Shown here one piece after another: positions 28,567 through 32,811 of a DNA stretch of 64,000 nucleotides. This DNA is from Oceanospirillum multiglobuliferum. GTDB taxonomy: Bacteria; Pseudomonadota; Gammaproteobacteria; Pseudomonadales; Halomonadaceae. The stretch is from contig NZ_FUXG01000001.1 in assembly GCF_900167095.1 (NCBI RefSeq), positions 124,001 to 188,000 on the forward strand, written 5' to 3'. The stretch's first letter is position 1. The number at the start of each line of letters is the position of its first letter. The position numbers and the translations under genes are program-made. The notes below the pieces were generated by a model. The model had not been told where the DNA came from. It was given only the letters and a program-made list of their open reading frames with translations, and did no database searches.

Positions 28567-28598
28567 ACACAAAAGAGGCACTTTAGCCTCTTTTGTGT
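28567..28598. terminator. Bidirectional terminator between trmJ and the chemoreceptor
   Basis: A 13-bp perfect stem (ACACAAAAGAGGC/GCCTCTTTTGTGT) with a 6-base loop lies between two convergent genes. Confidence 0.8.
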
Positions 28599-28625: not shown

Positions 28626-30257
28626 CTAACTAATCTTAAACCGTTTGATCATACCAATCATTTTTTGTGCCACATTTTGCAGTTCATTACTGGCTTGGGC
28701 CATCTGAGTGGATTCAGCCGCAACATTGGTAGTGAGATCTCTTAAACTCACAACATTGTGATTAATATTGGCAACCGTTGTACTTTGTTCTTCAGAGGCC
28801 GCTGCAATTTCTTGGTTCATACGTTGAATAGCACTGACTTCATCAGCAATACTCTCCAAAGCTGTCCCTGCAGATGCTGAGGTGCTAGCTGCGGCAACTG
28901 CTTTTTCTGCACCTTTACTCATTACGCTCACAGCTTGTTCAGCTGCACCTTGTAATTTTTCAACAATAGTTTGAATTTCAGTAGTCGACTCTTGCGTCCG
29001 TTGCGATAACGTGCGGACCTCATCCGCTACAACAGCAAAGCCACGCCCTGCCTCGCCTGCTCGTGCTGCTTCAATAGCAGCATTCAAGGCTAATAGGTTA
29101 GTTTGCTCAGCAATACCGCGAATCACTTCTAATACGGTATCAACATTGCGACTATCCTCCGCAAGCTTAGCAATCACCTCTCCTGCTTGACCAATATCTT
29201 CTGACAACATCTGCGCTTCAGATATATTGCGCTGAATGATTTTCTGACTGGCCTGTGCTTCACTCGTTGCTTGTGCGGTAGATTCTGTTGCCTGTACTGT
29301 ACGAGAGGTGACTTCGTCAACGCTAGCCATCATCTGTAACATTGCGCTAGCCAGTTGTTCTGCTTCATCTTTTTGGCGACCCACACTGTCATCAACAGAG
29401 CTTGTTGAGGCTGCCATCTGAGTAGCAGAAGAGGCCAAACGTTCAGCTGAGTGACTAACCTCTTGCATAATACCTTGTATAGAACTCACAAAATGATTGA
29501 AATATTTAGCTAGAGCAACAAGCTCTTTGCTGCCTTCTTCTTTTAAACGCTGAGTTAAGTCGCCATCACCCTGCGACAGGTCTTTCATCGCCTGCACAGT
29601 TTTATTCAAAGGCGTGGTGATGCTGCGGATGAAAAAGGCCAAAATTAGGGACAGAATGACCAAAATTATGCTGCCATTGAGAATAGACTTCAGCTCAGAC
29701 GTGGTGATATCTGCTTGTAAGGCGTCCATATTTAAACCACTGCCCACAGTCCACTGCCAAGGAGCAAAATAAGTGGCATAGCTGGTTTTAGGGTCTAATT
29801 GCTCTTTATTTTTAGCATTTGGCCATTTGTAATCGACAAATCCACCTCCTGCACGCGCTTTATCGTAAAGTGCTTGTACAAACATATTACCTGTAGGGTC
29901 TTTTAAGCCTGTGATTTTCTTACCGATCAGTTTCTTAACACCATTGGCAATAGCAATACCCTCTTTGTCACCGACAAACACGTAGTTACCATTATCAAAG
30001 CGCATTGCAGATACAGCCGCTAGAGCCTGCCTTTTGGCTTCATCTTCAGATAAAGCACCCTGTTGGCTCAGCTCATGGTAATGGGTCATTACACCTACAG
30101 CACTTTCAACAAGTAAAGTAACCCCTTTTTCATAGCTGCTACGCAAATGCTCTCGCATTTTCGCTGCATCCATTAAAGTATTCGCCAACAATCCAATCGC
30201 AAATAGCCCCAAAATCATCCACGCTCGTGTTGCGATAGATATTGATGATTGCCCCAT
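28626..30257 (-). CDS. Methyl-accepting chemotaxis protein with single Cache sensor domain
   Basis: This is a 543-residue chemoreceptor. TM1 is at about 13-30. A periplasmic domain at about 33-190 looks like sCache_2: [21 protein letters not shown], a central [13 protein letters not shown] element and a conserved [13 protein letters not shown]2 is at about 193-213, followed by a HAMP domain. The cytoplasmic hairpin tip reads [19 protein letters not shown], the CheA/CheW-binding signature. No C-terminal CheR-tethering pentapeptide is present. It is the last gene of a three-gene unit, 19 bases after the 88-residue gene. Related domains often sense small organic acids, but no ligand can be assigned. 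Confidence 0.93.
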
Positions 30258-30276
30258 TGCAAATTACTCCATTTGA

Positions 30277-30543
30277 TTAGCCCTGAGGCCCAGTTAAACA
30301 TTGCTTTGCCAATAACTGTTGATGCGCCTCTTGAAGTTGATTCAATTGATCAACAAGTCGGTCATCATCTACATCTCTTTGACATGACGTTGAGATAACA
30401 TCCCTGAAGTGATTAAGGAGCCGATCTGACTCGCTTATAGAAGCTACCTTCATGACGGCTTCTTGAGAGGTTTTTTCAGCTATTTGAACAGGATGCTGTT
30501 TAACTTTTAGCCTTATTTTTGAAGCCTTATTAAAAACACTCAT
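30277..30543 (-). CDS. Hypothetical small helical protein in the NHL-chemoreceptor operon
   Basis: I do not recognise this 88-residue protein. It has a basic N-terminus (MSVFNKASKIRLKVKQH) and a mostly charged, probably helical remainder ending in QLNQLQEAHQQLLAKQ, which has coiled-coil character. It has no signal peptide or membrane segment. The gene starts 6 bases after the NHL-protein stop and ends 19 bases before the chemoreceptor start, so it is expressed with both. It could be an adaptor between them; that is only suggested by position. Confidence 0.65.
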   Translation of the reverse strand: MSVFNKASKIRLKVKQHPVQIAEKTSQEAVMKVASISESDRLLNHFRDVISTSCQRDVDDDRLVDQLNQLQEAHQQLLAKQCLTGPQG

Positions 30544-30549
30544 TACCTT

Positions 30550-32616
30550 TTACTCCGGTTCAAACTGATATAAATTAATTCGATTTAATGCACAGTCAGG
30601 TAGATAAATTTTGCCATTTTTGACATGCATGAGATAAGGCATCCACATTTGACCTAAATTTTGATCTGCCCCGAAGCCACTAAAACTATTAATAAACTGC
30701 CCATCTATGTTGAAAACTTTAATAGCCCTATTAACTAGATCAGATACAAATATATAGCCTCTGTCGTGCTCTATACTGGTTGGAAGTAAAAAGTTATCGC
30801 CTGCGGAACCATAACCAGCTTGCCCCCAACTTCGCAGGAACTGGCCATTGCCATCAAAGACTTGAATCCTATTATTAAACTGATCGCTTACATAGCAATG
30901 GCCTTGCATATCTACTGTAATATCAGAAGGGGTATGAAACTCTCCTTCTTGATCACCAAGCCTACCGAAAACATCTACCAGACCTACTATGCCAGCAGCA
31001 TTCAAGCGCCAGCGTGAGATACGATTATTGCCTGAATCTGCAATTAAAATATCATTTGTAGTAGGGTCTACCGCTATGCCCTGAGGCTTGCTCAACTGCC
31101 AAGGTTCAGAGCCCAATGCACCAAAAACGGTATAGGGAATTAGCTCATCCAAAGGGGGATAATATTGATAAATTGTGACAATTCCGCTTAAAAAATTGCT
31201 AACGACCAATAAAGGGGAGTCATAATGGTATTGATTAGGCAAAGGCGTTGAAGGCTTTAGTGCAACAATACCCAATGAACCTGGTAATAAAGGCAAACTT
31301 GCTTTTCTAGCGCTATCAACATCAGCTTTGTCTGAGGCTTGAAGCTGGTAGTTACCTGCATCAACCATCCAAAGTACATCAGATGTACCGAGTTCTTTTT
31401 TAGGTATAAAAAGATTGATCCAGCTTCGCTGCCAACGCTGTAACCACTCTGTTTGCCAGCTTAAACTCATGCTGAGCCAAGCAGGCATCGCTTCAGGCTG
31501 CAAAGCTTTCAAGACCTGCTCTTGCAAACTTTGCTGTTGTTCAATTAGGCGCTCCAAGGGGCTTTCTAGCGTAGGTGTTGAGCTTGGTCTTAATGTAGAT
31601 AACTCACCTGCCGTTGAAGTGACAAAATGCAACTGCCCGAACTGATCACGTTCATCACCTATAGATTTAAGCACCAATGTTGAACGCTGGTTGTCTTTCT
31701 GTAGCGCCCGCAGATTAATTTCATGAAGTTGTACTGAGGCTAAAATAGGCTCAGTGATAAGTAACCTATTACTCTCTGGAAATGCAGTGATTTGAATCGG
31801 TGCAAAAAAGCCTTGTAAAAGGCCTTGGCGACGACCATTTAATCCGTATACAGCAATAGAATTCGCTTCTGCGCCTGGGATTAAAATTCGACCTTGAATC
31901 ACTGATACATCACGAGCCAGCTCTAAACCATCTATATAGGGTTTATTGGTTGCAGAAAAAGGCATTGATTGCCCTTTCCAGTCACACCGAATAACGGTAT
32001 TAAAACCAGTGTTAGCGATATAAAGAAGGCCCTTCTCATCAATGCTTAAACCTTGCGGCCATAGCAAGTGTAAAGGCTCATCAAGGGTTGGGCCTGTAAT
32101 TGCCTTAATCTCGTAAAGATATTGACCTAGCTCATCAAAAATAACTAAACGGCTTTCGCCATTTTCCCCTTCGTAGAATTCATCGGCTACACAAAGTTTG
32201 CCCTCATGATAGACGATACCATTTGGCCCCTTGAGCTCAACTGTTGCGCTATTACCAAAATGATTGATAGGTTCAATGGCTGACAGGTCATCATAATTTA
32301 AGATATGTACCCGTTTGTTACCAATATCTGTGACATAAATCCAGTTTTTATTAGGATGCGCTAACAATCGGAAAGGCATATTGAACTGCTGAGCACCGCT
32401 ACCAACAGTGCCATAAATTTGTAGCACCTGTTCTAGCGTTTTATCCAGAATCACCAAACGATTATGTGCGGTGTCTGCAACCCAAACACGTCCTAGGCGG
32501 TCAATACAACTGCCCACGGGGGTGTTAAAAGAGAGATTGCCATTAGCGGGGGTTGGTAAAGTATCAGAGAAGTGATTACTACTTTGACCAATATAAGACC
32601 GATACGAAATTCCCAT
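30550..32616 (-). CDS. NHL-repeat beta-propeller protein
   Basis: This is a 688-residue protein with two groups of NHL-type propeller repeats. The first (about 25-300) includes VGSCIDRLGRVWVADTAHNR, IYVTDIGNKRVHIL and GLLYIANTGFNTVIR. The second (about 510-685) includes ILIADSGNNRISRWR, CYVSDQFNNRIQVFD and IFVSDLVNRAIKVF. The middle (about 325-420) is different: a helical Gln/Leu stretch and the Trp-rich TEWLQRWQRSWINLF. I see no signal peptide, so it is probably cytoplasmic, unlike many NHL proteins. It heads the operon with the small protein and the chemoreceptor. NHL propellers usually bind proteins, RNA or ligands; its function is unknown. Confidence 0.82.
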   Translation of the reverse strand: MGISYRSYIGQSSNHFSDTLPTPANGNLSFNTPVGSCIDRLGRVWVADTAHNRLVILDKTLEQVLQIYGTVGSGAQQFNMPFRLLAHPNKNWIYVTDIGNKRVHILNYDDLSAIEPINHFGNSATVELKGPNGIVYHEGKLCVADEFYEGENGESRLVIFDELGQYLYEIKAITGPTLDEPLHLLWPQGLSIDEKGLLYIANTGFNTVIRCDWKGQSMPFSATNKPYIDGLELARDVSVIQGRILIPGAEANSIAVYGLNGRRQGLLQGFFAPIQITAFPESNRLLITEPILASVQLHEINLRALQKDNQRSTLVLKSIGDERDQFGQLHFVTSTAGELSTLRPSSTPTLESPLERLIEQQQSLQEQVLKALQPEAMPAWLSMSLSWQTEWLQRWQRSWINLFIPKKELGTSDVLWMVDAGNYQLQASDKADVDSARKASLPLLPGSLGIVALKPSTPLPNQYHYDSPLLVVSNFLSGIVTIYQYYPPLDELIPYTVFGALGSEPWQLSKPQGIAVDPTTNDILIADSGNNRISRWRLNAAGIVGLVDVFGRLGDQEGEFHTPSDITVDMQGHCYVSDQFNNRIQVFDGNGQFLRSWGQAGYGSAGDNFLLPTSIEHDRGYIFVSDLVNRAIKVFNIDGQFINSFSGFGADQNLGQMWMPYLMHVKNGKIYLPDCALNRINLYQFEPE

Positions 32617-32752
32617 CTGCCATTCCTTGTGACTGTATTTGGCGCTTAATAAAACAGTCTATTTATTACAACTATATGTATTTATGCAATTTAGCAACAA
32701 AACGGGGGAATTCAAGCCTTCTAAGCCAAAAAGCTGTAGTGCATCAAATTTT

Positions 32753-32788
32753 AAATAAAAAAAAGCCACCGCAAATGCGGTGGCTTTT
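32753..32788 (-). terminator. Rho-independent terminator of rpsA
   Basis: A 12-bp perfect stem (AAAAGCCACCGC/GCGGTGGCTTTT) with a 4-base loop lies at 32761-32788, followed on the minus strand by a run of T residues. It lies 23 bases after the rpsA stop. Confidence 0.88.
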
Positions 32789-32811
32789 TAGAACGATCTA
32801 ATCAATAACGA

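Follow-up and report, generated by a model that had tools for sequence, protein, structure and literature searches.

Chemoreceptor arrays are thought to consist of a short list of cytosolic parts, and among CheW, CheV, CheD and ParP, which resemble the case presented here in the idea of a cytosolic chemoreceptor partner, we know of none that is a propeller protein or that is tied to one receptor subfamily; nor do we know of an NHL-repeat partner of the receptor PscD. Here we analyze a 64,000-nucleotide stretch of Oceanospirillum multiglobuliferum DNA (contig NZ_FUXG01000001.1, positions 124,001 to 188,000; hereafter the window), on whose minus strand, as for all features located below, the genes for an NHL-repeat protein of 688 residues (30550..32616), a small helical protein of 88 residues (30277..30543) and an sCache_2-HAMP chemoreceptor of 543 residues (28626..30257) follow one another in that order. 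The coordinates of the open reading frames (ORFs) bear out the gaps of 6 and 19 bases given in a preliminary description of the stretch, which concluded that the three genes must be co-expressed; such spacing makes co-expression likely, but 'must' is too strong. The host genome has a chemotaxis system, with 10 CheW-family matches. We show that a functional partnership of the three proteins is well supported, and propose, with a probability of about 0.5, that one subfamily of sCache_2, 40H-type receptors is served by a dedicated cytosolic accessory made up of the NHL and small proteins. The arrangement points to an additional component in the taxis of some marine bacteria that is so far undescribed: the open-licence literature, screened by title and abstract opening and including propeller, receptor or array accessory and Oceanospirillum chemoreceptor topics, yielded no paper on such a trio, in keeping with the preliminary description, which knew of no pathway containing it.

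With the sCache_2 receptors PscD, McpP and Adeh_3718, which respond to C2-C3 carboxylates, the window receptor has in common the sCache_2 domain and, by the seven ligand contacts (His103 included) taken from the PscD structure paper (PMC5062169), the residues Tyr90, Tyr143, Trp145 and Lys156. Six of those seven contacts were examined, and among them Phe94 replaces PscD Trp92 and Asn105 replaces the ligand-binding His103 (Ser or Asn in receptors from genomes with the NHL gene, hereafter NHL-plus), so that the pocket is not identical to the C2/C3-carboxylate pocket of PscD and McpP. The sCache_2 domain (29688..30158; 122.1 bits, cut-off 25), the HAMP domain (52.7 bits, cut-off 25) and the MCPsignal domain (138.6 bits, cut-off 34.6) all exceed their Pfam thresholds and, with two membrane segments indicated by 19-residue hydropathy (1.87 close to the N-terminus, 2.74 at residue 192), identify the protein as an sCache_2 methyl-accepting chemotaxis protein. 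Its signalling tip lies at G401 and is followed by 142 residues, or 20.3 heptads; in receptors of the 40H class each arm of the cytoplasmic hairpin comprises about 20 heptads, and by this length count the hairpin may be of the 40H type. The protein ends in KRFKIS, without a CheR-type pentapeptide. Its best NCBIfam match, the CtpM equivalog (NF058645), extends over residues 13-542 at 375.9 bits against a cut-off of 900, and by that cut-off the window receptor is not an orthologue.

The NHL protein (Pfam NHL repeat 82.2 bits, cut-off 20) is predicted, from its repeats and from structural matches, to form two six-bladed propellers, the AlphaFold2 model built from 26 sequences having a mean predicted local distance difference test score (pLDDT) of 81.8 and a predicted template modelling score of 0.78. 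Propeller 1 (about residues 26-320; 31657..32541) matches the Brat NHL domain with Z 29.2 and a root-mean-square deviation (rmsd) of 2.4 over 248 residues, residues 26..304 being aligned, and propeller 2 (about residues 323-688; 30553..31650) matches the NHL domain of Thin with Z 34.5 and rmsd 1.9 over 261 residues, so that repeat score and fold together place the protein in the NHL-repeat family (PF01436); long Foldseek matches spanning two propellers were set aside at rmsd above 15. The fold is common to the NHL domains of Thin, TRIM2/3/71 and Brat, unlike which the window protein is bacterial, carries two propellers per chain, has a Trp-rich hairpin in a blade and gives no RING or B-box match in Pfam. 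That hairpin (residues 353-401, helices 353-372 and 379-401; 31414..31560) is rich in Trp and Gln, with 7.8% Trp in the insert vs 1.5% in the remainder of the protein across 26 homologues. In the model it is flanked by strands 332-337, 415-419 and 424-428, which together resemble the first blade of propeller 2, and GQLHFVTSTAG ... VLWMVDAGNYQLQAS can be read as a single NHL repeat interrupted by the insert. The preliminary description had placed two NHL regions around a Trp-rich helical middle; both propellers and the helices are recovered, but the helices would sit inside the first blade of propeller 2 rather than between the propellers. A match to the SMP-30/gluconolactonase-like family PF08450 (29.9 bits, cut-off 26.3; residues 509-597) falls inside the NHL-repeat region.

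In NCBIfam the NHL protein scores highest against ScyF (NF035926), an exported PEP-CTERM protein; the match reaches 149 bits against the equivalog cut-off of 350, and the window protein differs in having no signal-peptide-like start. Hydropathy, which peaks over 19 residues at 1.11 and so indicates no membrane-like stretch (vs 2.74 in the receptor), thereby agrees with the preliminary description on the absence of a signal peptide and gives no support to secretion, which would have spoken against a shared function; within the first 60 residues of the 26 homologues the top value is 1.61. A cytosolic site is therefore probable. No relatives of the NHL protein were found in plasmid and phage collections, and Cys 37, 142, 211 and 675 are invariant in 26/26 homologues.

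The small protein, modelled by AlphaFold2 as three helices, has a highest 19-residue hydropathy of 0.21 and thus no membrane-like stretch, and in an alignment that left out one member (L087) shows a conserved N-terminal V-F-x-x-A-x-x-K-R-like motif and a C-terminal G-P. No Pfam or NCBIfam family exceeded its cut-off, and PHROGs and PADLOC gave no phage or defence family, for this protein included. We took as chance three PDB matches (E 0.028 to 0.62) and the weak matches of single members to scattered models, each common to at most 4/25 members, the cut-offs of these models having been seen for the window protein only and none being exceeded there.

A first line of evidence for the partnership is the distribution of the three genes. 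NHL searches scored the best 3 or 4 first-look candidates per genome and receptor searches the best 5 (window's family) or 4 (Vibrionaceae), so that misses are possible. Within the window's family the NHL protein occurs in 8/275 genomes, six of its own genus and two of one other genus (in at least one further genome of which, G030, it was not found), and receptor orthologues occur in the same eight only, at 906 bits or more vs 506 for the next best match. In the Vibrionaceae sample, the 296 genomes of the family of a Vibrio penaeicida genome, it is present in 17 and the receptor orthologue in 55 (54 of them scoring at least 762 bits and one, truncated, 547), and all 17 lie within the 55. An NHL gene without a receptor orthologue was thus never found in the genomes searched (8/8 and 17/17 carry the receptor), a one-way dependence for which naive hypergeometric values, uncorrected for kinship, are 1e-15 and 4e-14, respectively. 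Wider samples of the class (1/369) and the order (1/390) yielded only the window's own genome.

Together with a Photobacterium locus (L015) whose genome lies outside these searches, the eight and 17 genomes provide 26 NHL loci. The small gene directly follows the NHL gene in 26/26, and in 19/26 the receptor gene completes the trio in the order NHL-small-receptor; the preliminary description had proposed a search for co-occurrence and regarded genes usually lying apart as evidence against a shared function, which is not what these loci show. NHL stop and small-gene start overlap by four bases in 10/26 loci. The L015 copy of the small protein, from Photobacterium chitinilyticum (L015:8079-8291), is shortened and lacks the conserved C-terminal G-P. 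Receptors of 33 of the 38 Vibrionaceae genomes in which the NHL gene was not found (hereafter NHL-minus) were fetched with their neighbourhoods, G756, G770, G781, G791 and G782 being left out; two of the 33 genomes have a small gene directly before the receptor, and a third has a small-gene remnant beside it (54% identity over 37 residues). No NHL fragments were detected by tblastn beside the receptors of 40 loci without an adjacent NHL gene (the 33 NHL-minus and seven separated ones). Receptors of the linked, separated and NHL-minus kinds intermingle in the receptor tree, with seven changes of NHL presence by parsimony.

A second line of evidence comes from an upstream element recurring where the genes are apart. 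NHL-minus receptors have a site like TTTACTGCTACATTTATATTTA upstream in 18/29 genomes, and a matrix learned from 19 such sites in these 18 regions, restricted to sites with a TGCTA core, was scored against 316 control upstream regions, nearly all from Vibrionaceae neighbourhoods. At the separated loci, 6/7 NHL upstream regions outscore all controls and the seventh outscores 310/316; the seven separated receptors, close kin of the training set, also outscore all of them. Of the 19 linked NHL loci four do so, two from Oceanospirillum and two from V. penaeicida, and a fifth outscores 310/316. The sequence CTGCTA lies within 200 bases upstream of 11/26 NHL genes and 25/62 receptor entries (those inside the operon included), as compared with 0/22 other receptors and 18/876 other ORFs. 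The pattern CTGCTACNNTTATA has exactly two matches in each of two whole genomes, G919 and G922, one upstream of the NHL gene and the other upstream of the receptor gene, and none elsewhere; as it was composed from those two sites themselves, its absence elsewhere is the informative part. The pattern was run in 3/7 genomes with separated genes, and in the third, G899, it is found at the receptor only, the NHL site deviating at the last base and a reversed control also matching once. The element may represent an extended -10 promoter sequence plus a further part. No sigma-28 (FliA) promoter was seen upstream of the NHL gene in 22 regions (best 9-12/16 consensus bases, without a background), and perfect inverted repeats of six bases, present in the 130-base stretch upstream of 3/6 separated NHL genes, indicate no constant operator. 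Inverted sequences were also noted by eye, TTGCA/TGCAA-like ones near the NHL start at five loci of the window's family (L009, L020, L022, L023, L090) and TATGT/ACATA-like ones upstream of NHL in some Vibrionaceae; both could be operators.

A third line concerns the ligand pocket, compared in 58 receptors (26 NHL-plus and 32 of the 33 fetched NHL-minus, the truncated L132 of G934, at 546.7 bits, being excluded from tree and pocket counts). The PscD contact list, drawn from the same structure paper, was fixed before the comparison, list and column ranking being printed by a single script. Equivalents of Tyr90, Tyr143, Trp145 and Lys156 are kept in 58/58 receptors and Trp92 is Phe in 58/58, whereas the counterpart of His103, N105 in the window (codon 29943..29945), follows NHL presence: it is Ser (23) or Asn (3) in 26/26 NHL-plus receptors vs 6/32 NHL-minus ones, which carry Thr (19), Ser (6), His (2), Ile (2) or a one-residue deletion (3). 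Absence of the NHL-small pair mostly accompanies an altered pocket. The contrast recurs in Photobacterium (Ser vs His), in the V. penaeicida group (Ser vs Thr) and in the G727 group (Ser vs deletion), and is less clean among other Vibrio. With NHL presence simulated on the receptor tree, 0/8000 histories match the strength of the association, and column 105 ranks top of all 543 receptor columns. In 18 hand-picked pairs no receptor region showed a clear pattern of evolving differently after NHL loss.

Together, the co-occurrence, the shared element and the pocket residue argue for a functional partnership, most simply an accessory for receptors with this pocket. The sensory module of three genes put forward in the preliminary description thereby receives partial support from co-occurrence across two families and several neighbourhoods, from the element shared when the genes are apart and from the pocket residue; what stays constant, however, is the pairing of the NHL protein with the small one, and the receptor is often present without this pair. 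In the mechanism that we favor, a receptor pocket with Ser or Asn would bind a small extracellular ligand, probably a carboxylate; at that position Thr, His or a gap prevails among NHL-minus relatives. Inside the cell the double propeller would provide a rigid scaffold, with its hairpin and the small protein docking on the cytoplasmic coiled coil or the HAMP region of the receptor, where they might tune or gate the signal to CheA/CheW; such docking is suggested by the probable cytosolic location of the propeller protein, by its aromatic hairpin and by the helical character of the small protein. A receptor-specific propeller partner, if true, would add a new kind of array part; close relatives with and without the NHL-small pair offer natural controls, and an element common to two separate genes together with a pocket residue makes for direct, testable predictions. 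A variant in which the propeller, by sensing an internal signal or being loaded by one, gates the receptor through the small helical adaptor, making taxis to one external ligand dependent on cell state, we consider doubtful.

Several results weigh against the accessory reading. No NHL gene was detected in 38/55 receptor-carrying Vibrionaceae genomes, so that the receptor presumably works without it, and in 7/26 loci, all in Vibrionaceae, the receptor lies on another contig. The seven separated NHL proteins form one clade, which points to about one separation rather than independent cases, although their receptors occupy two or three positions in the receptor tree. NHL distances agree with receptor distances (rho 0.72), but shared history predicts this as well. 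Fourteen linked NHL upstream regions (14/26 overall) are not distinct from controls; they include that of the window (32617..32759), whose weak TGCTAAATT element within 32680-32709 is at background, 40/316 controls scoring as high. When all 543 receptor columns are considered, some column is equally strong in 34% of 600 simulations, so that the claim for position 105, best of the 543, depends on this residue having been named as part of the pocket. Finally, the parts that would make contact are modelled with low confidence (block pLDDT 62-68 across the hairpin, mean pLDDT 69.9 for the small protein).

The main rival, which we regard as possible though on balance unlikely, is a shared pathway without contact, in which the NHL-small pair acts in a process using or making the sensed compound, the receptor guides the cell to it, and the genes are co-regulated. 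The pocket correlation and the shared upstream element fit this equally well, the pair can lie far from the receptor gene, and a NUDIX gene is a recurrent neighbour of the trio or of the receptor in some of the genomes; by eye, however, with ten neighbours scanned, no transporter or enzyme gene is constant across neighbourhoods, the NHL protein stays far under the cut-off of its best NCBIfam model, ScyF, and the two genomes with small gene and receptor in which NHL was not found suggest a small protein that acts with the receptor. It is improbable, in our judgment, that the NHL protein instead regulates the receptor message post-transcriptionally by binding RNA, as the NHL domains of TRIM71 and Brat do: NHL domains solved with RNA (TRIM71, Lin41, Brat) are among its best structural and sequence matches, but a common fold, the only thing compared, does not establish function, and Rfam places no RNA family at the trio locus, its one hit in the window being a tRNA elsewhere.

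We give very little credence to the remaining explanation, that the three are chance operon neighbours retained by common descent. It would account for the constant flanks in the six Oceanospirillum genomes, where the trio adjoins rpsA and a methyltransferase/groEL block (names read from the sequences), but the gene order is kept amid other flanks in the second genus and in Vibrionaceae, and co-presence and the shared element persist when the genes are apart. These points largely refute it, and chance linkage was rejected on the co-occurrence in two distant families. The dedicated receptor accessory is what we retain as the best explanation of the whole.

Around the trio in the window, terminator-like stems lie between the NHL gene and its neighbour (32760..32789), which we take from its sequence to be rpsA, as we do groEL and a TrmJ-like methyltransferase nearby, and 3' of the receptor gene (28567..28598); neither terminator-like sites as a class (3 found vs a shuffle mean of 3.9) nor promoter-like sites (7 vs 9.4) are in excess at the locus.

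Elsewhere the flanks vary, their identities coming from a domain scan for ten neighbours and from inspection by eye for the others. Separated NHL-small pairs adjoin transporter genes in seven genomes, scanned as MacB-type in L083 only. Other trios are flanked by DHH/DHHA2 and phosphotransferase system genes, by NUDIX and YceI genes, or, in G007 (of the second genus of the window's family) and some Vibrionaceae, by nitrite-reductase-like and ATP-binding cassette (ABC) transporter genes in differing orientation (L024:1235-4631, L080:10709-14151), a neighbourhood that may reflect horizontal transfer or some connection with nitrogen metabolism. Scanned NUDIX genes are found close to the trio both in Photobacterium and in a single genome belonging to the window's family (L014:5067-5606, L090:11811-12365), and a look at the sequences places one 3' of many stand-alone receptor genes (L119-L158).

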